NCBI RefSeq assembly: GCF_027924185.1
Contig: NZ_BRVO01000001.1
Coordinates: 1,178,001 to 1,242,000, forward strand
Reading direction: 5' to 3'
From: Neptunitalea lumnitzerae
GTDB lineage: Bacteria > Bacteroidota > Bacteroidia > Flavobacteriales > Flavobacteriaceae
DNA: 64,000 nucleotides
Within the stretch, counting starts at the first letter, position 1. Each line of letters starts with the position of its first letter. The notes below the pieces were generated by a model. It did not search any database. It saw only the letters and a list, made by a program, of their open reading frames with translations, and was not told the origin of the DNA. Below, in pieces: positions 9,099 through 61,774 of the stretch. The translations under genes and the position numbers were made by a program.

Positions 9099-10664
9099 AT
9101 GAGTCACGTTATTGATAAACATGAAAAGGAACTCTTCGGACATCCGGTAGGGTTGTATATACTATTTTTTACCGAAATGTGGGAGCGTTTTTCGTATTAC
9201 GGAATGCGTGCATTGCTTACCCTATATATGACGGCTTCTACTTTAGGAACAGATGATAGAGGAGCAGGATTAGGATGGACAGAATCTGAAGCTTTGGCTT
9301 TGTATGGTTGGTATACCATGTTGGTGTATGTCATGTCTATACCTGGAGGGATGATAGCCGATAAATTAATAGGGCAGAAAAAATCTGTACTTGTTGGAGC
9401 TATTATTTTATGTATAGGACATGGTGTTTTGGTATTAACAGATACTTGGGCATTCTACACAGGTTTAGGATTGGTAATTTTAGGTGTTGGTTTATTGAAA
9501 CCTAATATCTCTACGATGGTAGGAGGTTTGTATAGACAAGGAGATATTAGAAGAGATAAAGGATTTAGTATTTTCTATATAGGTATTAATACAGGGTCTT
9601 TATTAGCAACCATTTTTGTTGGGCTAGTAGTAGCTGAGTGGGGATGGCATGCTGGTTTTGGATTGGCTGGTATTGCTATGGTACTTGGTTTAATTGTGTA
9701 TATCTGGGGACAAAGGTTTCTTACACATGTGGGAAATTTAGATTCAGGCTCTAAAGATGAAGTAGATGAAGTCTCTTACCCACATTTATACTCAGATCTT
9801 TTTAAATCGCCATTACAATTAGGTATTAGTGTTTTATTAGTAGTGTTGAGTGGTATTGGTTGGTATTTTATGGACTGGGGCTACGGAATGCTGTTTTTAT
9901 TCATTACAGCAATTGCAGCTTTAATGATGATGATTTATAAAGAATTACCAAATCAAATTTATAAAGATAGGTTTGTAGTAATGTTATTATCATTTATCAT
10001 GGTAATCATATTCTGGGGTGCTTTTGAACAGGCTGGAGGTTTAATGAACTTATATACCGATGAAAAAACCAATCGTGTGTTATTTGGGTACGAAATTCCT
10101 ACCGTAATGTTCCAGAGTTTAAATGCTGGTTTTATTATCATTTTTGCTACCATCGTAGCAGGTATTTGGGCTAAAAGAAAGCTGAAAGGAAAAGAATCTT
10201 CTTCACTATTTAAAATGGCTATAGGTATCATTATTATGGGATTTGGTTTCCTATTTATGGTGTTTGCAGCTATGGAATATCAAAAAACGGGGACTTCTAA
10301 TTTGTTATGGTTAGTATTTGCATACTTATTCCATACGTTAGGGGAGTTGTGTATATCGCCAGTGGCATTGTCTTTTATTACCAAATTAACACCAGTAAAA
10401 TATGCTTCGTTAATGATGGGGGTTTATTTTGCTGCTACAGGGTTAGGGAATAAAGTAGCCGGAATTATTGGAGAGTCTGCTTCTGAATTTGGTGAGTATT
10501 CTGTGTTCTTAGGTATTTTAGTATTTACAGTAGTTATAGGTGGATTGTTTGTGGCAATTAAAAAACCGTTAATTCGTCTTACGCACGGTGCTGAAGATAA
10601 TGAACATGATTTGTCTCACGAAGACAATAAGGGGCCGGAATTAGAAAAATTTGAAGAAGCTTAG
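9099..10664 (+). CDS. POT-family peptide transporter (first copy)
   Basis: The 521-aa polytopic membrane protein opens with the POT signature FFTEMWERFSYYGMRALLTLY (residues 23-43, containing ExxERFxYY) and has 12 or more hydrophobic segments. It belongs to the proton-dependent oligopeptide transporters (PTR2/DtpT type), which import di- and tripeptides through the inner membrane. It follows the DPP IV gene by 19 bp. The C-terminus is acidic and hydrophilic (EDNEHDLSHEDNKG). The next gene is a diverged paralogue. Confidence 0.93.
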   Translation: MSHVIDKHEKELFGHPVGLYILFFTEMWERFSYYGMRALLTLYMTASTLGTDDRGAGLGWTESEALALYGWYTMLVYVMSIPGGMIADKLIGQKKSVLVGAIILCIGHGVLVLTDTWAFYTGLGLVILGVGLLKPNISTMVGGLYRQGDIRRDKGFSIFYIGINTGSLLATIFVGLVVAEWGWHAGFGLAGIAMVLGLIVYIWGQRFLTHVGNLDSGSKDEVDEVSYPHLYSDLFKSPLQLGISVLLVVLSGIGWYFMDWGYGMLFLFITAIAALMMMIYKELPNQIYKDRFVVMLLSFIMVIIFWGAFEQAGGLMNLYTDEKTNRVLFGYEIPTVMFQSLNAGFIIIFATIVAGIWAKRKLKGKESSSLFKMAIGIIIMGFGFLFMVFAAMEYQKTGTSNLLWLVFAYLFHTLGELCISPVALSFITKLTPVKYASLMMGVYFAATGLGNKVAGIIGESASEFGEYSVFLGILVFTVVIGGLFVAIKKPLIRLTHGAEDNEHDLSHEDNKGPELEKFEEA

Positions 10665-10702
10665 ATTAATATAAAGAGATTATTATTTCGTTTTGAAAGA
10701 TT

Positions 10703-12274
10703 ATGAATACAAAAAGTAACGAAGAAGTTTTTAGTTTACTTGGACATAAACCAAGTTTATTTGTTCTGTTTTTTACAGAAATGTGGGAGCGTTTTTCTTA
10801 TTATGGAATGCGTGCTCTTTTAGTATTGTTTTTAACAACATCATTAACCGATGGTGGATGGGCTTGGAGTAATGAAGATGCGCTATCGCTATATGGTATT
10901 TATACGGGGCTTGTATATTTAACCCCTATTATTGGAGGTGTTATAGCTGATAAGCTTTTAGGTTATCAAAAAGCAGTTGCTTTGGGTGCCTTAATTATGA
11001 CTTTAGGTCATGCCTCTATGGCTTTGGAAACACCTATGTTTTTATATATTGGTTTGGGATGTTTAATTATTGGTAACGGACTTTTTAAACCAAATGTTAC
11101 TTCTATAGTTAGTGGATTGTATGATAAGCATCAAGAGAAAAAAGATGGTGCTTTTACTATTTTCTATATGGGGGTAAATGCTGGTGCATTCTTAGGAATA
11201 ATGTTATGCGGATATATTGGCGAAAACTTTAGTTGGAGTCTAGGATTTGGATTAGCTGGTGTATTTATGTTGTTAGGGATGCTGCAATTTTGGTTTGGAC
11301 GTACGATTTTTGAGGGTATTGGATTATCTCCAAAAGAAGATACACATCAAAAAGATTTAGAAGCAGAAGAGAAAAAACCTCATGATGCAAATGTTGAAGT
11401 AAAAGAAACACATGTGCCTGCAAAGGTTCAAGCCGATAGATACATTGTAGTTGGAGTGTTAGCATTCTTTACAATTTTCTTCTGGGCAGCTTTTGAACAA
11501 GCAGGTGGTTCTATGACTATTTTTGCTAAGAATTATACAAATAGACTTTTAGAAGGTGATGCAGCTACAACTTTTAAAATAGTAGATGCTATCATAACAC
11601 TAGTTCCACTAGTAGTGATAACGATTGTGATTTATAAGTTGTTTGTTCAAACATTTAAAAAAATTACCCTATCCAATATTATCTTAGGTTTCAGTTTTCT
11701 TATAATCTGGGGTATTGTACTTTGGAAAGTAACTAGAGAATTTAGTGCTGATTCTACAGAAGTACCTGCGTCATGGTTTGGTATTTTGAATTCCTTATTC
11801 ATTATTACATTGGCACCGCTTATTTCTAAAATTTGGGAAAGTAAATACAATCCTTCTGCTGCAGTAAAATTTGGTGTCGGTTTGATTCTTTTAGGTGGTG
11901 GATTTGCTTTTTTAGCTTTCGGAGCGAACAGTATTCCTCAGGGTGCTGAAACAGCTGCAGTAAGTATGGTATGGCTTATTTTAGCATACTTACTACATAC
12001 ATTAGGTGAGTTATTTTTATCTCCGGTAGGGTTGTCTTATGTGAGTAAGCTTGTTCCTGCTAAATTGATTGGTCTAATGTTTGGTATATGGTATCTAGCA
12101 ATTTTTATTGGAAATACTGCGGCAGGACAACTAGGAGGATTGATAGATAAGATTACAGCTGAGTATTCTTTAACAACGTTCTTCTTGATATTTACTATTG
12201 TTCCAGCAGTTGCAGGTTTCTTATTAATATTGGTGAACCCATTACTTAAAAAATTAATGCATGGTGTAAGGTAG
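10703..12274 (+). CDS. POT-family peptide transporter (second copy)
   Basis: The 523-aa paralogue of the preceding transporter shares the POT signature (FFTEMWERFSYYGMRALLVL) and the late motif LAYLLHTLGELFLSPVGLSY. It differs by a long charged cytoplasmic loop (about residues 210-245, rich in K, E and H) between the two halves. A tandem pair of POT genes behind a DPP IV peptidase suggests that the two differ in specificity or affinity, which is inference. Confidence 0.92.
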   Translation: MNTKSNEEVFSLLGHKPSLFVLFFTEMWERFSYYGMRALLVLFLTTSLTDGGWAWSNEDALSLYGIYTGLVYLTPIIGGVIADKLLGYQKAVALGALIMTLGHASMALETPMFLYIGLGCLIIGNGLFKPNVTSIVSGLYDKHQEKKDGAFTIFYMGVNAGAFLGIMLCGYIGENFSWSLGFGLAGVFMLLGMLQFWFGRTIFEGIGLSPKEDTHQKDLEAEEKKPHDANVEVKETHVPAKVQADRYIVVGVLAFFTIFFWAAFEQAGGSMTIFAKNYTNRLLEGDAATTFKIVDAIITLVPLVVITIVIYKLFVQTFKKITLSNIILGFSFLIIWGIVLWKVTREFSADSTEVPASWFGILNSLFIITLAPLISKIWESKYNPSAAVKFGVGLILLGGGFAFLAFGANSIPQGAETAAVSMVWLILAYLLHTLGELFLSPVGLSYVSKLVPAKLIGLMFGIWYLAIFIGNTAAGQLGGLIDKITAEYSLTTFFLIFTIVPAVAGFLLILVNPLLKKLMHGVR

Positions 12275-15820: not shown

Positions 15821-16183
15821 ATGAAAGTTGCTTTGTTTATAACGTTAGGGTTAATTATTTTGGTGGTATCACTTTGTTCGGTGATAAAATTATTGGTTAT
15901 GGTAACCGATAGAGTAACCGAAAAACTAGCTAAAGCTTATTGTAACAAACACGGGTATCTTTACATACGCGTAGAGGTATTACCAGAAGACTATGTGCTA
16001 CATTTTGAAGCACACGGACATATCTTTTTAGCCAATTTTAATATAGACAAAAACAAAAATCTTATTTGGACAGGTGCTAATCCCGAAAAGGTTATCGCTA
16101 ATTATATAGAGAACGAAGGACTCCCTACTCCTGAAATGTTCAACGGAGTTTCTGCTCAAAAAATACTCAAGAACGTAGGCTAA
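15821..16183 (+). CDS. Single-pass membrane hypothetical protein, paralogue A
   Basis: This 120-aa protein has one N-terminal transmembrane helix (about residues 4-28) and a small soluble domain. The core YCNKHGYLY ... FEAHGHIFLANFNI ... LIW aligns with the following gene at the same positions, so the two arose by duplication. No known family is recognised. It lacks an RxxxxH HEPN motif and has only one helix, so it does not look like the Cas13b accessory proteins Csx27 or Csx28. Confidence 0.65.
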   Translation: MKVALFITLGLIILVVSLCSVIKLLVMVTDRVTEKLAKAYCNKHGYLYIRVEVLPEDYVLHFEAHGHIFLANFNIDKNKNLIWTGANPEKVIANYIENEGLPTPEMFNGVSAQKILKNVG

Positions 16184-16347
16184 TAGCTGTAAGAAGTAAG
16201 ATTTTACATTGAAAAAATAAAAATTTAAGAGATTGCCAATTTTATTTTTTCTATATTTATGTGCTTATATAAGTACTACCCGTCGATAGGTTTTTCATAA
16301 TTCATGTAGCGTTATATAAGCGTTTGTTATTTATAATAAAGCTTTAT

Positions 16348-16710
16348 ATGGCTGTTTTAAGTATTCTTACATATCTCTTACTTGGGCTTTTTAGCGTCAT
16401 CATTATCTTAATGCTAGCAATGAAATTTTGGGTATATGTGCAAGATAAAGAAGCTAGATTTATAATAGAAGAATATTGTAAGCTTCACGATTTTCAGTTT
16501 GAAACCATGTCGGTACATCCTAATCATTATCAAGTAGCAGCAACCAAAGGTGGTACAAAATTTATAGCTTCTTTTTCTATAGGTGAAGAAAACCGAATCA
16601 TCTGGAATCAATTTTCGTTAGTAGATCAACACCGAAGAAAATTTAGCAAGGTAGTCCCTGCTAATATTCAAAATACCAATACACCTTCTGAACATATCAA
16701 TGCGATGTAA
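16348..16710 (+). CDS. Single-pass membrane hypothetical protein, paralogue B
   Basis: The ATG at 16348 gives 120 aa, exactly the length of the preceding paralogue; an upstream TTG at 16324 in the same frame is less likely. One transmembrane helix (about residues 5-30) precedes a soluble domain with the shared pattern YCKLHDFQF ... TKGGTKFIASFSI ... IIW. The pair is diverged, which suggests an old duplication. The function is unknown. The accessory region with hicAB and cas13b follows. Confidence 0.62.
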   Translation: MAVLSILTYLLLGLFSVIIILMLAMKFWVYVQDKEARFIIEEYCKLHDFQFETMSVHPNHYQVAATKGGTKFIASFSIGEENRIIWNQFSLVDQHRRKFSKVVPANIQNTNTPSEHINAM

Positions 16711-16717
16711 TTTAGTA

Positions 16718-16847
16718 TGCTTACTCCCAAATGGAGATGCGTACGCCTAAGTGATACTGAAAGATGTTCAGCATGACGAGTTTGGTATTTGTTTGTATAG
16801 CAATGTTTCGTCACCTTGAACTTGATTCAAGGTCTCATCTGAGTAAG
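16718..16847. repeat. Palindromic interspersed repeat, diverged copy
   Basis: A decayed unit of the window-wide repeat: GATGTTCAGCATGACG (16763-16778), a spacer, then a complete half-unit CGTCACCTTGAACTTGATTC..AAGGTCTCATCTGAGTAAG (16809-16847). It lies between paralogue B and hicA. The arms ACCTTGAA / TTCAAGGT still pair. Confidence 0.75.
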
Positions 16848-16920
16848 AATTCCCTTTTAAATATGGTAAACAGTATTCAAAGTCAAAATGTTACCTGTAA
16901 ATTACAAGTAATAATTTTAA

Positions 16921-16961: not shown

Positions 16962-17144
16962 ATGAAATCAAACGAGCTTATCAAGTTAATAGAGGCGGAT
17001 GGATGGTTTTTGGTTAGAACTAAAGGGAGTCATCATCATTTTAAGCATGATGAAAAAAAGGGATTAGTCACTATACCACACCCAAAAAAGGATATCCCAA
17101 CAGGAACAGCCAATGCCATTTTAAAACAAGCCGGACTTAAATAA
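16962..17144 (+). CDS. hicA: HicA-family mRNA interferase toxin
   Basis: The 60-aa protein is a full-length HicA: a dsRBD-like fold with the catalytic histidine region KGSHHHFKH (about residues 21-29), a GLVTIPHPKKDIPTGT strand and the C-terminal ILKQAG. HicA toxins cleave mRNA independently of the ribosome. The antitoxin gene starts 7 bp downstream. The tandem operator upstream suggests autoregulation. It lies next to the cas13b locus, so two RNA-cleaving systems adjoin here. Confidence 0.92.
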   Translation: MKSNELIKLIEADGWFLVRTKGSHHHFKHDEKKGLVTIPHPKKDIPTGTANAILKQAGLK

Positions 17145-17151
17145 AGGTGTT

Positions 17152-17562
17152 ATGGAGAAGACAATTTATGTGTATGTAGAAAAGGCCGAGGACGGCACTT
17201 ATTGGGGTACTTCTAAAAACATACCCGGAGTGGTAAGTGCTTTTGGAAACTCGCTAGAGGAGTTGAAAAGTAATTTTAAAACAGCTTTTGCCGATTATAT
17301 CGAGGTTGCCACTGAAGAACAAGAAGATTGGTTAGCGGAGGTAGCCAATTGTACCAACTTTGTGTACGAGCTAGACTTAGCCTCTTTCTTTAAGCTAGTT
17401 CCTGAAATTAAAATCTCAGCCATAGCCAAAAAAGCAGGGGTAAATGCTTCCCTAATGCGTCAATATGTAACAGGTAAAGCCAATGCCTCAGAAGAACGTA
17501 CCAAACAAATAGAACAAGCCATACACGAACTAGGTAAGGAGTTGTTATCGGTGAGCTTTTAG
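17152..17562 (+). CDS. hicB: HicB-family antitoxin with HTH domain
   Basis: The 136-aa protein has the HicB_like partial RNase H fold at the N-terminus (about 1-70; EKAEDGTYWGTSKNIPGV) and a helix-turn-helix at the C-terminus (about 85-132; ISAIAKKAGVNASLMRQYV). It would neutralise HicA by binding it and repress the operon at the tandem palindromes. It ends 120 bp before the end of the converging cas13b gene; a palindromic repeat copy lies in between. Confidence 0.92.
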   Translation: MEKTIYVYVEKAEDGTYWGTSKNIPGVVSAFGNSLEELKSNFKTAFADYIEVATEEQEDWLAEVANCTNFVYELDLASFFKLVPEIKISAIAKKAGVNASLMRQYVTGKANASEERTKQIEQAIHELGKELLSVSF

Positions 17563-17627: not shown

Positions 17628-17666
17628 CGTCACCCTGAACTTGATTCAGGGTCTCAACAGAGTAAG
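17628..17666. repeat. Palindromic interspersed repeat, half-unit
   Basis: One half-unit CGTCACCCTGAACTTGATTC + AGGGTCTC ... GAGTAAG lies at the convergence point of hicB and cas13b. The hairpin ACCCTGAA / TTCAGGGT could act as a bidirectional terminator. Confidence 0.8.
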
Positions 17667-17682
17667 CATCATTTTTCAGGGT

Positions 17683-20600
17683 TTAGTTTGATTGTACTAA
17701 CTGAGCATTTACCGTTTCCTTTAGCTCCGTAATACTTTGTTGAACAAAGGAAAGAATTACTGCACTATAGGATTCTAAATTACTTTCCTGTACAAATGCT
17801 TTTATAAGATGATAGAACTCTTTTTTAGGAAGTTGATTGTGTGCAAATTTGTTTCGAATAAGTATTATTAAAAACATTTTCTGAACAAGGGTTGATTTAC
17901 TTTCGACTTCTGAAATACTTATTTTTTTGAAAGAGTGTTTTTCATCGTTGTCCAACCAAGTAACTTCCTCCTCGTTTGCAAGCTTATATTTTTTTAAAAT
18001 ACCTTGAGACAGATATTTTTTGAAATTAGGGTTGCCATCCTGTTCTAATTCGGTTGGGTGGTTTGTACCGTTAAAGCCCCATTTTTGTAAAATCCATTGT
18101 TCAAACTCTTGAATTTCTTTGAATAATATATTCCTGCGGATTACCTCATACGAATAGTCTTTTATTTCTAGTTCTTCTTCTAGTGCTGTTTTTTCATAAT
18201 ATTTGGAGGTATCATAAGATAATAGTGTTTGTACTTTTTCGTCTTGCAGATACTTTTTAAATTTACCTAGTTCTTTAATCTTAACCGCAGGTTCTTTTAT
18301 TTGTCCATGCTCATACGGAACCGTCATGCTCCATACAAAATTGGACTTTATAACATTGTCGCTTTTGTCTCCCACTTCGCGCTGGCTTTGTTCTCTGGCT
18401 TTCTTTTCTTCCGCTAAGCGTTCTTCTTGTGTTAAGTACAATTGCGCTAGCGTTATATGGGCAGCAGATCCAAAACTTTCTTTACATAAAGCATTGGCTA
18501 TTAATAGCAAAAAGACATCTTGAATTTGTGTTTTTTTAATTTTAAGGTCTTGCTTTTGCTTGAAAGACTTAAAATTAGGGTCGTCTTGGGTTAGAAAAAC
18601 ATCTTGGTAATCTCTTGGGTAGCTATAAAAACGTTGGTAATTGGTATGATGGTAAAAATGACTGTACCAGTCAGCATACTGTTCTGGGTTATCGGCAATG
18701 TGTACCCCACGTATGTAAGTGGGTTTGGCATCAAAAATACCTCTCGGAAATACCAAAGGTTTTGCCAGTAATTTGTTTTTCTGATTTTCTAAACTGTCAA
18801 TAGTATACAGGCGTTTATAGAAAATATCCCAAAGGTGTTGTTGCTTTACAAACTGTTTTAAGCGTTTGTTTTCATTTTTAAAGCCTTGTATTTGGGTTAG
18901 CAGAGCGTTCAATGTTTTTTGTCGGTTGCTGAGGTAGGCTCTATAAAAAGTATCAAAGAAACGCTGTTCAAATGCTGTGTAAATACCTGCGCTCCATGTA
19001 TGTTGGTCTTGTTTAAAATTCCAAAATTGCTCTAGCAGATGTAACGCTTCTTTAGGTTTTTGCTGGTAATAGGCTAATAATTCCTGTAACTGACTATGGT
19101 GATACCCTTTCCACTGACTTCGGCCAGATGGCGGCATAAACCGTTTAAGGTCTTCTGCTAGCCAGGTGGCTTCCTGTCCCAATTCCCGATTGGTGAAAAT
19201 TACTTTTCTTGTGTTTCTATAGTCTTTAAACGCTTTCGTATTATTATCAATAAGAGTTAGTTTTTCTTGGGTAACGTCTATTTCGGTTTGTATAGCAGCT
19301 ATTAGCTTGTTGGTGTCTATGGTTTCTTGTGCCTTGGCTCTGCGTAAGTTTTTGGTAATCTCGGAAGAAGAAAGTGCATCAGTAGTTTTGTAATTACGAA
19401 TGGTCTCATGCCGTTCTATCAGTTTTTTTACTAAGATGGTTTCAATTTCTTCTCCTGTTTTTTTGTGTACCAATAAATCATATAACAAAGCAGGGAGCTC
19501 GTTAAGCGAAAGCATGGCAGTGGGCATTCCCATTGCAATAGACTTATAACTTTTTGGTTTTAGGTCTTTATCTATAAAACCTGCAATCTGCTGTTTGGTA
19601 GGTTTGTCCTCTTTTCTTTTGCTATAAGTTTTAGTCTCTAAACCTCTTGCTTTTGATAGGTTTATATAGAGTTCTTTTGCTCCTGAAACATCGCTTTTAC
19701 TTAAATCAATAAATACCGGAATATTATCTGCTACAAAGTTATATGACGGATTAGGAAACAGTTCCCAACCGGTATCTGCGGGCGCTTGGTCTTTTAAAAA
19801 ATAGTCGGTTTTTAAATTGGTTACCTCCGATAGCTTGCCAAACACTTTTATTTTTTCTTTAATAACCCGTTCTGTACTATACTTGGTGCCCTCAATTTTT
19901 TTGGTACGGGCATCGTGCACGTAATTCCCTAAATGTAGTTGAAATTTTAGGGTAGGGAAATTGGCAAATTCATCTAAGTAGCGCAATACAAAATAGGCAA
20001 ATTTGTTTTCGTATCGTTTTCTAATTACCGGATGTATTACCGTAGCGTCCTCTAAATTATGTATCTTTTTCCCTTCTGTAATGTATTGGTTTATATCCTC
20101 TACAAATTGGTCTTTTTGTGCTTGTGTAAAGGTTTGGTATAAAGCATCGGGTACTTTGCTTAACTCATCTATAATTTGTACCAAAAGTGTCTCTTGAGAG
20201 AATCCTGTGGTTAACCTGTTTTTAACCCCTTTAAAGCTTAAATGCCTAAACACCCAATGGGTAGCCATGTATTTTAAGCTATTATTGTTTCGGTCAATTT
20301 CTTTATCTTCATTTTTAACTACTTTGCCTTTAAACCCTCTAATGTTACTACGCAAATCTTCTCCTTGTTTGCGGGTTAAAAACAACCCTAGCAAAAACAG
20401 CAATCCGCTTTCAGAAATAGCAATGCCGTTTTCGGCAGGCGTGTCTCTATTGTAAGCCGATTGGTAATTGGCATTCACACCATCTTTATACGTAAGGTGC
20501 CAAAAGGCATCGTTTAGTACCCCGTTTTTAATAGCCAAGGGTTCTAGGTTTACTTTTTCCCCTTTTGCTTTCTGTTCTTTTAACGTAGCTAGTTTTAGTG

Positions 20601-21171
20601 TTTCAAGGGTTTCTAATTCCTTACCCAATTCCTTTTTAAGCAAATGTCTAGAGCCGTCCGATTTTACCTTGTACTTTTTCACGTCAGCAATGGTTTTTAA
20701 AAACAGTTCATCTAAAAGGTCATATACATCGGGGTTTATGTGTATAGGTGCATGGTAATGATGGGTGTAGAAATTACGTAAACTTTCTATAGTGCTTAAA
20801 AAGGTAAGCATACTGTTTTTAAAATGTGCTCTACGTAATTGATCTCTATTTCCTTTTTTAGCAAACTTTTCATGGTCTATAGGTAAGTACAGGTACTGCA
20901 CCATTGGTAGGTGTTGTTTTAAAAAATCAACCCCAATTTCATAATCGGTAATGGTTTTTTGTTCGGTAAAATAAAGGTCAAATGCTCTTATATAATTTTT
21001 CTGTTTTTGGTCTCCTTTATTTTTAGGGTTAAAACGTTCCTCAAAAGCTGTAAAAACAGCATCTATATTATTTTGCGCTAAGTTTAAAAAACCTGCAAAA
21101 TAATGCTTATCGGTAATGCTGGTATGCGTATAATAAATGCCTTTTCCAATAGGCTGGGTAGTATGTTCCAT
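17683..21171 (-). CDS. cas13b: Cas13b, type VI-B CRISPR RNA-guided RNase
   Basis: The 1162-aa protein has the Cas13b layout with one HEPN motif near each end: R132-NFYT-H137 (SLRNFYTHHYH) and R1106-NKFA-H1111 (LIRNKFAHNQLP). Both are intact RxxxxH nuclease motifs; the two HEPN domains together form the RNase centre in this family. The long middle part is lysine-rich. Length fits the 1100-1250 aa typical of Cas13b. Family enzymes process their own crRNA, cleave target RNA and then cut bystander RNA. A VI-B-like array lies 162 bp upstream, separated by a terminator. No csx27, csx28, cas1 or cas2 is adjacent. The frame is unbroken. Confidence 0.95.
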   Translation of the reverse strand: MEHTTQPIGKGIYYTHTSITDKHYFAGFLNLAQNNIDAVFTAFEERFNPKNKGDQKQKNYIRAFDLYFTEQKTITDYEIGVDFLKQHLPMVQYLYLPIDHEKFAKKGNRDQLRRAHFKNSMLTFLSTIESLRNFYTHHYHAPIHINPDVYDLLDELFLKTIADVKKYKVKSDGSRHLLKKELGKELETLETLKLATLKEQKAKGEKVNLEPLAIKNGVLNDAFWHLTYKDGVNANYQSAYNRDTPAENGIAISESGLLFLLGLFLTRKQGEDLRSNIRGFKGKVVKNEDKEIDRNNNSLKYMATHWVFRHLSFKGVKNRLTTGFSQETLLVQIIDELSKVPDALYQTFTQAQKDQFVEDINQYITEGKKIHNLEDATVIHPVIRKRYENKFAYFVLRYLDEFANFPTLKFQLHLGNYVHDARTKKIEGTKYSTERVIKEKIKVFGKLSEVTNLKTDYFLKDQAPADTGWELFPNPSYNFVADNIPVFIDLSKSDVSGAKELYINLSKARGLETKTYSKRKEDKPTKQQIAGFIDKDLKPKSYKSIAMGMPTAMLSLNELPALLYDLLVHKKTGEEIETILVKKLIERHETIRNYKTTDALSSSEITKNLRRAKAQETIDTNKLIAAIQTEIDVTQEKLTLIDNNTKAFKDYRNTRKVIFTNRELGQEATWLAEDLKRFMPPSGRSQWKGYHHSQLQELLAYYQQKPKEALHLLEQFWNFKQDQHTWSAGIYTAFEQRFFDTFYRAYLSNRQKTLNALLTQIQGFKNENKRLKQFVKQQHLWDIFYKRLYTIDSLENQKNKLLAKPLVFPRGIFDAKPTYIRGVHIADNPEQYADWYSHFYHHTNYQRFYSYPRDYQDVFLTQDDPNFKSFKQKQDLKIKKTQIQDVFLLLIANALCKESFGSAAHITLAQLYLTQEERLAEEKKAREQSQREVGDKSDNVIKSNFVWSMTVPYEHGQIKEPAVKIKELGKFKKYLQDEKVQTLLSYDTSKYYEKTALEEELEIKDYSYEVIRRNILFKEIQEFEQWILQKWGFNGTNHPTELEQDGNPNFKKYLSQGILKKYKLANEEEVTWLDNDEKHSFKKISISEVESKSTLVQKMFLIILIRNKFAHNQLPKKEFYHLIKAFVQESNLESYSAVILSFVQQSITELKETVNAQLVQSN

Positions 21172-21194
21172 AGTAGTTTTTTGTTTTAGCTACC

Positions 21195-21238
21195 GTTAGT
21201 AACTGTAGGAGGCTGTAATTACTACAGCAGTTACCAAC
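21195..21238 (-). promoter_or_regulatory. Hairpin in the cas13b 5' leader
   Basis: An imperfect inverted repeat (GTTAGTAACTGTAG at 21195-21208; CTACAGCAGTTACCAAC at 21222-21238, with a 3-nt bulge) lies 24-67 nt before the cas13b ATG. Read on the cas13b strand it starts GTTGGTAACTG, close to the first bases of the crRNA-strand repeat (GTTGTAACTGG). Whether it is a regulatory structure is inference. Confidence 0.45.
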
Positions 21239-21249
21239 TGTACGAATCT

Positions 21250-21257
21250 TAAAGATA
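21250..21257 (-). promoter_or_regulatory. Candidate cas13b promoter (-7 box)
   Basis: TATCTTTA on the minus strand matches 7 of 8 positions of TAnnTTTG and lies about 80 nt upstream of the ATG. A start here would place the leader hairpin in the mRNA. No convincing -33 box is seen. Confidence 0.3.
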
Positions 21258-21294
21258 CTAACTTTTTATAGAAGTAACGTAGTGTGTAAAAAAT

Positions 21295-21329
21295 AAAAGG
21301 CGTAGCTGCGCTAAACAGCTACGCCTTTT
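21295..21329. terminator. Bidirectional terminator between CRISPR array and cas13b
   Basis: A perfect 14-bp inverted repeat (AAAAGGCGTAGCTG / CAGCTACGCCTTTT) with a 7-nt loop has T tracts on both strands. It ends 3 bp before the first repeat of the array. It would stop an array transcript on the minus strand before cas13b, and any plus-strand transcript before the array. Confidence 0.85.
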
Positions 21330-21332
21330 TTT

Positions 21333-21764
21333 GTTGTGAATAGCCTACAAAATTAGACCAGTTACAACATCTATAACCGTAATGAGGTTAGAGCTTTAGT
21401 TGTGAATAGCCTACAAAATTAGACTAGTTACAACGGTGTATATAACAGCAAGGGCGAATTGATTGTTGTGAATAGCCTACAAAATTAGACCAGTTACAAC
21501 GGTGTATATAACAGCAAGGGCGAATTGATTGTTGTGAATAGTCTACAAAATTAGACCAGTGACAACCAACGCCTGTTAATCCTAACGATGCAGTTAGTTG
21601 TGAATAGCCTACAAAATTAGACCAGTTACAACAGACATTGGGTAGTTCATCTGCTAATGTGAGTTGTGAATAGCCTACAAAATTAGACCAGTTACAACGG
21701 AAAGTTGAAAAATTTCAAAAGTGAATTAGTTGTGAATAGCCTACAAAATTAGACCAGTGACAAC
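21333..21764 (-). CRISPR. Type VI-B CRISPR array, 7 repeats and 6 spacers
   Basis: Seven 36-bp repeats start at 21333, 21399, 21465, 21531, 21597, 21663 and 21729. Every spacer is 30 bp. The plus-strand repeat begins GTTGTGAATAGCCTAC and ends GACCAGTTACAAC, so it has the VI-B GTTG...CAAC ends. The minus strand carries the central TTTT that VI-B crRNAs show, and its ends (GTTGTAACTGG, TTCACAAC) resemble the Bergeyella repeat, so I place the crRNA on the minus strand, as cas13b. Repeats 2, 4 and 7 have one or two substitutions; 4 and 7 share GTGACAAC. Spacers 2 and 3 are identical. Confidence 0.97.
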
Positions 21765-22012
21765 ATACTTAAAATACCTCTAAAATTCTCTTTGTTTACA
21801 AGGGTATCCATAACTTCTTAGCATTTAAAAAATGAAACAATTAAGGTATTTGTTACTGCAAAGTACGGCATTTTTTTATTTCTATGAGAACTCTTTAACC
21901 CTTAAAGATTGGATAATACCGTGAAAACTTCCTATTCTCAATACAACAAATGTCTATCGAAATTCACCCGAACTGACGGGGTTTTCTGGTGTTTGTTAGT
22001 ATCACAATGTTT
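21765..22012. other. AT-rich flank of the CRISPR array, possible leader
   Basis: No gene is seen. If the array is transcribed on the minus strand, this is its upstream side. A TACTTTGC box (21865 to 21858 on the minus strand) could be a -7-like element about 95 bp before the outermost repeat, but no -33 box is evident. Leader function is inferred from position. Confidence 0.3.
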
Positions 22013-22344
22013 CGTCACCCTGAACTTGATTCAGGGTCTCATTCGAGTAATCTAATCTGTACGTGAGCTACTTGTGCGATGCTGAATCGAGTTCAGCATG
22101 ACGAGTTTGGTATTTGTTTGTATTGCAATGTTTCGTCACCCTGAACTTGATTCAGGGTCTCATCATAGTAAGCTAATTAGTACGTGAGCTACTTTTGAGA
22201 TGCTGAATCAAGTTCAGCATGACGTTTTGGTATTTGTTTGTATTGCATAGTTTAGTCACCTTGAACTTGATTCAAGGTCTCATTCGAGTAATCTAATCAG
22301 TATTTAAGCTACCTGTGCGATGCTGAATCAAGTTCAGCATGACG
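22013..22344. repeat. Palindromic interspersed repeat, three tandem units
   Basis: Three units of about 91 bp recur with a 120-121 bp period, starting at 22013, 22134 and 22254. Each runs from CGTCAcCCTGAACTTGATTC to AAGTTCAGCATGACG and contains two hairpins and inverted CGTCA/TGACG ends. The linker between units (GTTTGGTATTTGTTTGTATT region) is conserved too. The cluster ends 12 bp before the GIY-YIG stop codon. Confidence 0.9.
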
Positions 22345-22355
22345 AGTTTGAAATA

Positions 22356-22637
22356 TTAAAAGATTTCAATTCTTTTCATTTTAGGGTTTTGTTTCTTAAT
22401 AAGATTGACTTTCCAGTCTCTACGCCAATTTTTTAATTGTTTTTCCCGTGCAATAGCAAGTTTTATATTAGTGAATTCTTCATAATAGATGAGATCTGTT
22501 AAAGTGTATTTAGATGAGAATTTACTTCCAATCCCATTTATATGTTTGCTTATTCTTTCGTTTAGATTACTTGTTACTCCAACATAGAGAGTAGTTCTGT
22601 ATTTGTTAGTTATTATGTATACATAAGATGTTTTCAA
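22356..22637 (-). CDS. Single-domain GIY-YIG nuclease
   Basis: The 93-aa protein is a lone GIY-YIG domain: SYVYIITN (residues 4-11, GIY position), LYVGVTSNLNERISKH (17-32, YIG position with the catalytic-type Arg28), then a YYEEF segment and a basic C-terminus (KQLKNWRRDWKVNLIKK). There is no UvrC or DNA-binding extension. Such short proteins are common in multiple copies in Flavobacteria, with unknown roles. Here it is enclosed by copies of the palindromic repeat at both ends, so it may be linked to that family. Confidence 0.9.
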   Translation of the reverse strand: MKTSYVYIITNKYRTTLYVGVTSNLNERISKHINGIGSKFSSKYTLTDLIYYEEFTNIKLAIAREKQLKNWRRDWKVNLIKKQNPKMKRIEIF

Positions 22638-22719
22638 GATTCAGTGTTTTGTTTATGAAGATCTGTATATTTTGATTGTAATTATTACTGATATCCTTAA
22701 TTAACAAAATGGAAACTAA

Positions 22720-22810
22720 CGTCACCCTGAACTTGATTCAGGGTCTCATCTGAGTAAGTTAATCTGTACGTGAGTTACTTGTGCGATGCTGAATCAAGTT
22801 CAGCATGACG
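22720..22810. repeat. Palindromic interspersed repeat, one full unit
   Basis: A complete 91-bp unit from CGTCACCCTGAACTTGATTC to CAGCATGACG, in the same orientation as the three units on the other side of the GIY-YIG gene. It lies between that gene and the dppC-like gene. Confidence 0.9.
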
Positions 22811-22827
22811 GTTAAAGTAGGAGACTT

Positions 22828-56079: not shown

Positions 56080-56156
56080 CGGAATAATATTAATCCTATG
56101 TCTTTAAATCATTGATGATGTTTTTATGTTATAGAAACTCCGTACTTCACTATTAG

Positions 56157-56622
56157 CTCATAAACTTACTCAGATGGGATCCTGAATCAAGTTCAGGATG
56201 ACGGAACACTATATATAAACACCCTCGTCATGTTGAACTTGATTCAACATCTCACAAGTGGCTCATAAACTCACTCAGATGGGATCCTGAAATCGAAGAT
56301 TCAACGGAGTTCACCAAGTTCAGGATGACGGAATACTCTCTATATATAAACACCCTCGTCATGTTGAACTTGATTCAACATCTCACAAGTGGCTCATAAA
56401 CTTACTCCAATGAGATCCTGAACTAAATTCAGGATGACGGAACACTCTCTATATATAACCACCCTCGTCATGTTAAACTGGTTTCAACATCTCACAAGTG
56501 GCTCATAAACTCACTCAGATGGGATCCTGAAATCGAAGATTCAACGGAGTTAATCAAGTTCAGGATGACGCTATGCTCTCAACAAACAACTAATCCTCGT
56601 CATGTTGAACTTGATTCAGGAT
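56157..56622. repeat. Palindromic interspersed repeat cluster, inverted orientation
   Basis: Four alternating pairs of the hairpins CCTGAA..TTCAGG and GTTGAA..TTCAAC recur at about 120 bp, here reversed relative to the cluster near 22 kb. In two units (56286-56324 and about 56526-56564) the hairpin loop is enlarged by a 24-nt insert starting ATCGAAGATTCAACGG. The last unit is a hybrid (GTTGAAC..TTCAGGATG). The gap 56053-56637 holds no gene. Confidence 0.9.
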
Positions 56623-60880: not shown

Positions 60881-60929
60881 GCCTGCAAAGGTCGGGATTA
60901 TTTTTAAATTTTAGAATGAATGCACATCC

Positions 60930-61774
60930 CGTCATTCTGAACTCGATTCAGGATCTCATCTGAGTAAGTTTTTGAGCTACTAGTGAGATGTTGAATCAAG
61001 TTCAACATGACGAGGGGTAGTTTTTTGTTGAGTGTGTTCCGTCATCCTGAATTTAATTCAGGATCTCATCCGAGTAAGTTTTTTGAGCTACTAGTGAGAT
61101 GTTGCATCCAGTGCAACATGACGTAGGGTGATTTTTGTTGAGAGTGTCCCGTCATCCTGAATTTAGTTCAGTATCTCATCTGAGTAAGTTTTTTGAGCTG
61201 CTAGTGAGATGTTGCATTCAGTTCAACATGACGAGGTATAGTTGTTTGTAGGGAGTTTTGCGTCATCCTGAACTCGATTCAGGATCCCATCCGAGTAAGT
61301 TTTTTAAGTTACTAGTGAGATGTTGAATCAAGTTCAACATGACGTAGGGCAGTTGTTTGTAGGGGTTTTTGCGTCATCCTGAATTAAGTTCAGGCTCCCA
61401 TCTGAGTGAGTTTATGAGCTACTAGTGAGATGTTGAATCAAGTTTAACATGACGAGGGGTAGTTGTTTGTAGGGAGTTTTGCGTCCTCCTGAATTTAGTT
61501 CAGGATCCCATCTGAGTAAGTTTTTTGAGTTACTAGTGAGATGTTGCATCTAGTTCAACATGACGTAGGCTGATTTTTTGTTGAGAGTCGTGCGTCATCC
61601 TGAACTTGATTAAGGATCCCATCTGAGTGAGTTTTGAGCTGTTAGTGAGATGTTGAATCCAGTTCAACATTAGTTGTTTGTAGGGAGTTTTGCGTCATCC
61701 TGAATTTAGTTAAGGATCCCATCTGAGTGAGTTTTGAGCTGTTAGTGAGATGTTGAATCCAGTTCAACATGATG
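60930..61774. repeat. Palindromic interspersed repeat cluster, eight tandem units
   Basis: Eight units of 80-90 bp recur with a period near 110 bp, beginning CGTCATcCTGAA at about 60930, 61041, 61150, 61261, 61372, 61480, 61593 and 61693. Each has a TCCTGAA..TTCAGGA hairpin, a conserved GAGTAAGTTTTTGAGCTACT linker and a GTTGAATCAAGTTCAAC hairpin. The two last units are the most decayed. The 1-kb gap between the MATE and Usp genes holds no gene besides this cluster. Confidence 0.92.

Follow-up and report, generated by a model that had tools for sequence, protein, structure and literature searches.

A type VI-B CRISPR locus of Neptunitalea lumnitzerae comprising Cas13b and a CRISPR array without csx27, csx28, cas1 or cas2

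The Cas13b effector

The window analyzed here is a stretch of 64,000 nucleotides from contig NZ_BRVO01000001.1 of Neptunitalea lumnitzerae (assembly GCF_027924185.1). On its minus strand it carries cas13b (17683..21171), which encodes an intact type VI-B effector of 1162 amino acids. This open reading frame is identified as Cas13b by two independent profile libraries, namely NCBIfam VI_Cas13b (NF038190; 5e-264 and 878.9 bits at a curated cut-off of 150 bits) and the PADLOC Cas13b profile (857 bits). Homology with Cas13b of Bergeyella zoohelcum (BzCas13b, PDB 6aay) extends over the full length (E 1.1e-140). Both catalytic RxxxxH motifs are found near the ends of the protein, i.e. RNFYTH of HEPN1 (residues 132-137; 20761..20778, minus strand), which aligns with LRNFYTH of BzCas13b, and RNKFAH of HEPN2 (residues 1106-1111; 17839..17856, minus strand). 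In an alignment of 12 Cas13b sequences R132, H137, R1106 and H1111 are unchanged, and the same holds for Lys424 (19900..19902, minus strand), which aligns with K393 of Prevotella buccae Cas13b (PbuCas13b), reportedly a residue of pre-crRNA processing. An earlier note made from the sequence alone had described an intact effector of this length with exactly these four HEPN residues, and had proposed a profile search and a tree as checks; both place the protein inside Cas13b.

In the phylogenetic reconstruction the protein groups with Cas13b of other Flavobacteriaceae and with that of genome G895, the one sequence of this group that comes from another family of the class, with support 100/100; the branching order near long-branched rows is unsure. 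Members of the clade range from 1046 to 1171 amino acids. This means that the length is ordinary and the suggestion of the note that the protein might differ from studied Cas13b in size falls away, while the suspected difference as such has a concrete basis in a swapped segment of the Lid region (see below). Compared with the gene of Neptunitalea chrysea, and with the segment of residues ~487-552 and the last residues left out, dN/dS is 0.17, hence cas13b is under purifying selection. An AlphaFold model (pLDDT 38.6, four-sequence alignment) was unusable.

CRISPR array and regulatory elements

Upstream of cas13b and in the same direction lies a CRISPR array (21333..21764, minus strand) with the repeat GTTGTAACTGGTCTAATTTTGTAGGCTATTCACAAC in crRNA sense, comprising seven copies of 36 nt and six spacers of 30 nt at a start-to-start spacing of exactly 66, transcribed toward cas13b; it is the adjacent VI-B-like array of the earlier note. 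The repeats are nearly identical among themselves and one internal copy equals the N. chrysea repeat exactly. Two adjacent spacers are identical, leaving five distinct ones, and no second copy of the array occurs in the genome. Its 36-nt hairpin repeats of the form GTTG...CAAC and its spacers of ~30 nt mark the array as one of type VI-B, to which the family score, the paired HEPN motifs and the clustering in the tree also assign the locus.

The array leader (21765..21964, minus strand) is kept in N. chrysea. Published VI-B arrays have a leader-repeat hairpin, in which the first repeat pairs with the leader and not with itself (PMC13187072). Such a hairpin is not predicted here: the repeat folds on itself (-9.4 kcal/mol for the leader-proximal copy) and pairing with the leader does not exceed that with shuffled leaders, both for the own leader and for that of N. 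chrysea. Array and cas13b are probably separate transcripts because an intrinsic terminator able to act on either strand (21295..21329, minus strand) is located between them, and in its stem two base pairs differ from those of N. chrysea by compensatory changes. Closer to the cas13b start follows an 11-bp hairpin (21195..21238, minus strand), present as a single copy in the window and kept in N. chrysea, that has GTTG/TAACTG in common with the CRISPR repeat and is possibly a regulatory element. That it acts as a repeat-like autoregulatory element was considered but is kept only as a lead, as nothing comparable was found before the other cas13b genes. No Rfam families were detected near the locus.

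Neither phages nor plasmids yielded a match to the array. When the five distinct spacers, cut into 20- to 30-mers, were compared with IMG/VR, two matches were obtained, both with a single spacer and inside a motif coding for YNSKGEL; one of the two open reading frames encodes a relative of a Polaribacter phage protein. They were rejected as protospacers because a degenerate search found this motif in unrelated phage proteins, so it is generic. A 20-mer match of another spacer was taken as chance (7/30 mismatches). Thus, no protospacer was firmly identified among phages, plasmids and IMG/VR, and Cas13b was not found on viral contigs.

Accessory and adaptation genes

Profile searches for Cas1, Cas2, Csx27 and Csx28 found none of them, either near the locus or in the whole genome (3.85 Mb, 11 contigs, 99.85% complete), which extends to the genome what had been noted for the surroundings of the locus. 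The Cas1 and Cas2 profiles were positive in other genomes used as controls. For Csx27 and Csx28 the control genomes gave no match and real genes from other loci served as positive control: the Csx27 profile matches the gene beside Cas13b of genome G616 and the Csx28 profile the genes beside Cas13b of G938, G951 and G965. With locus and genome searched, the system belongs neither to VI-B1 (csx27) nor to VI-B2 (csx28).

The genome of N. chrysea, a member of the same genus, contains two Cas1: the first belongs to a II-C locus, the second to a type I-like operon. GTTGTGAAT opens both the repeat of this II-C locus and, on the opposite strand, the VI-B repeat. Neither cas9 nor cas1 nor the array of the II-C region has a match in the genome of N. 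lumnitzerae. The VI-B arrays of both species have no spacer in common, which indicates that the spacers were acquired after the two arrays parted. Spacer memory looks frozen at present, because the genome is now devoid of any Cas1 while N. chrysea has two.

Among 400 sampled genomes of the family six contain a Cas13b above the cut-off. Together, eight loci of Flavobacteriaceae were compared (the present one, those of N. chrysea, Mesonia oceanica and F. jejuense, and those of genomes G299, G022, G016 and G593) and in none of them was a csx27- or csx28-like reading frame found within the stretch examined, which in G299 and G016 is a short contig. In Flavobacterium columnare the VI-B locus was described as Cas13b alone, without adaptation genes or csx27/csx28, and its array uses Cas1 of a II-C system in trans (Hoikkala et al. 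2021, PMC8092290). Moreover, csx27 is marked as dispensable in a 2025 classification (PMC12669027). For these reasons the minimal layout of Cas13b and array is already known, and its presentation as unusual in the earlier note does not hold. What is added here is a genome with no Cas1 left, the apparent exchange of the cassette between species and the putatively swapped Lid-region segment.

Elsewhere, four loci (L070-L073, from genomes G1107, G916, G790 and G623) encode divergent Cas13b-like proteins of 1118-1205 amino acids adjoining a 2TM protein that resembles PycTM/CBASS 2TM effectors and not Csx27 or Csx28. The effector of L073 has no PADLOC match, yet an array of 32 repeats adjoins it.

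Evolution of the locus

Between N. lumnitzerae and N. chrysea every flanking gene scored shows a dS from 1.09 to saturation. For whole cas13b the value is 0.36, and 0.32 (bootstrap 0.27-0.37) without the segment of residues ~487-552 and the last residues; the high identity stops at the cas13b stop codon. Since dS of cas13b is far below that of all scored neighbours, array and cas13b appear to form a cassette that reached the same site in both species, either by exchange within the genus or from one shared source. No further gene was seen travelling with it. Small membrane-protein genes nearby (15821-16710) have a dS >2 and are, unlike the cassette, vertically inherited and diverged.

On both sides of the cassette REP-like palindromic repeats (CGTCAYCCTGAACTTGATTCAGGRTCTCA) are found (16753-16850, 17628-17667, 21984-22350 and 22691-22816), which recur elsewhere in the window (56147-56620 and 60927-61770) and might act as recombination sites. 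A small GIY-YIG domain protein with no aligned counterpart in N. chrysea is encoded between the array and an oppC-like gene (22356-22637). In N. chrysea (L002) a stretch of ~1.39 kb that includes the cas13b 3' end occurs twice with 100% identity (10231-11621 and 19088-20478, 8857 bp apart). The duplicates bracket a polyamine gene cluster (arginine decarboxylase, agmatinase, deoxyhypusine synthase and RimK), relatives of which are located elsewhere in the genome of N. lumnitzerae, on two contigs.

Within Cas13b itself the similarity to N. chrysea is interrupted. Identity amounts to 92% in residues 1-486 and 88% in residues 551-1145 but to 25% in residues 487-550. The segment of residues ~487-552 (19516..19713, minus strand) represents a version, here called A, that is also found in G299, G022 and G593 (z about 11-15), whereas the segment of N. 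chrysea matches that of Mesonia (z about 12); comparison of the own segment with N. chrysea or Mesonia yields z of 0-4. In the whole-protein tree the two Neptunitalea proteins have that of Mesonia as their nearest outgroup. These data are best explained by an intragenic swap, in which recombination would have given the lineage of N. lumnitzerae another version of a ~65-residue segment. The dS of 1.49 within the segment (few sites), against 0.32 outside, makes hypervariability alone a less likely cause. By sequence alignment only, the segment falls between residues 396 and 494 of PbuCas13b, i.e. in the Lid region, and in Cas13bt3 the Lid is a guide-contacting domain (PMC7613696).

From these observations a wider but rather speculative proposal can be derived: Csx-free Cas13b of marine flavobacteria may swap at least two interchangeable Lid-region versions of ~65 residues while the cassette moves between species, whereby the swap would alter guide handling or evade phage anti-CRISPRs, and the effector would have stayed under selection with its memory frozen after the loss of Cas1/Cas2. 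The two Neptunitalea proteins, ~90% identical and set apart mainly by a single Lid-region segment, offer a natural experiment on the role of this segment.

Proposed mode of action

We consider it quite probable that the locus is an intact and self-sufficient VI-B interference module, with the effector acting alone and a memory that is now fixed. The array would be transcribed leftward from its conserved leader up to the terminator before cas13b, and cas13b separately. By analogy with studied homologs Cas13b would bind the repeat hairpins and process the pre-crRNA itself, with participation of Lys424 in the Lid, to spacer-repeat guides. Binding of a complementary phage transcript would bring the two HEPN motifs together to an active RNase, and the activated enzyme would presumably cut target as well as bystander RNA and thus stop the infected cell. 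Neither a Csx27/Csx28 modulator nor a membrane pore would be involved. Because the genome lacks Cas1 and Cas2 the memory would be fixed at present, and the six spacers may have been acquired earlier, either by Cas1 acting in trans from a CRISPR system lost since then or in a different host, prior to transfer of the cassette.

A different reading is that Cas13b works together with an unrecognised partner replacing Csx27/Csx28, be it the HicA/HicB-like toxin-antitoxin pair (16962-17562), the small membrane proteins, two in number, encoded at 15821-16710, or a gene farther away; reliance on local membrane or toxin genes had been envisaged in the earlier note, too. HicAB lies 120 bp from the end of cas13b, a HipA gene is located near the Mesonia array and other VI-B-like loci have other membrane partners such as PycTM-like 2TM proteins. 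But HicAB is convergent with cas13b and missing beside cas13b of N. chrysea, the membrane proteins with their dS above 2 did not travel with the cassette (cas13b 0.32), and by inspection no accessory gene is common to both Neptunitalea loci and those of Mesonia or Flavobacterium. We therefore regard local partners as disfavoured and a partner in general as improbable.

Slightly less credit still can be given to the idea of a decaying relic that has lost its adaptation genes and drifts without useful immunity. It would fit the absence of Cas1/Cas2 from the genome, the short array of six spacers with one duplicate, the lack of identified spacer targets, the partial cas13b duplicate in the sister species N. 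chrysea and a fragmented cas13b in genome G052. Against drift speak the intact reading frame of cas13b with retained catalytic residues and a dN/dS of 0.17, as well as the compensated terminator pairs and the nearly identical repeats. The self-sufficient module is thus preferred, and the locus is a natural example of Cas13b retained without a known helper or any adaptation genes in the genome. It can serve to test whether Cas13b alone defends its native host.

Comparison with known systems

The VI-B system of F. columnare, also from Flavobacteriaceae, shares the reduction to Cas13b and array with neither csx27/csx28 nor adaptation genes in the locus. It differs in retaining a II-C system, from which Cas1 serves the VI-B array in trans, whereas the genome of N. 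lumnitzerae is without Cas1/Cas2. The N. chrysea locus is similar, with an 86% identical Cas13b, the same site between conserved flanks, the order array-terminator-cas13b and the leader in common; all spacers, the Lid-region version, the two Cas1 in the genome and the partial cas13b duplication set it apart. Cas13b of Bergeyella zoohelcum shares full-length homology and the HEPN motifs, and the repeat of this species is presumably of the same kind, but its locus is said to include csx27, which is absent here. Finally, Prevotella buccae Cas13b (PDB 6dtd; genome G938, locus L068) belongs to the same family and has the aligned processing lysine but is only ~22% identical, is accompanied by Csx28 and has its array after csx28 instead of before cas13b.
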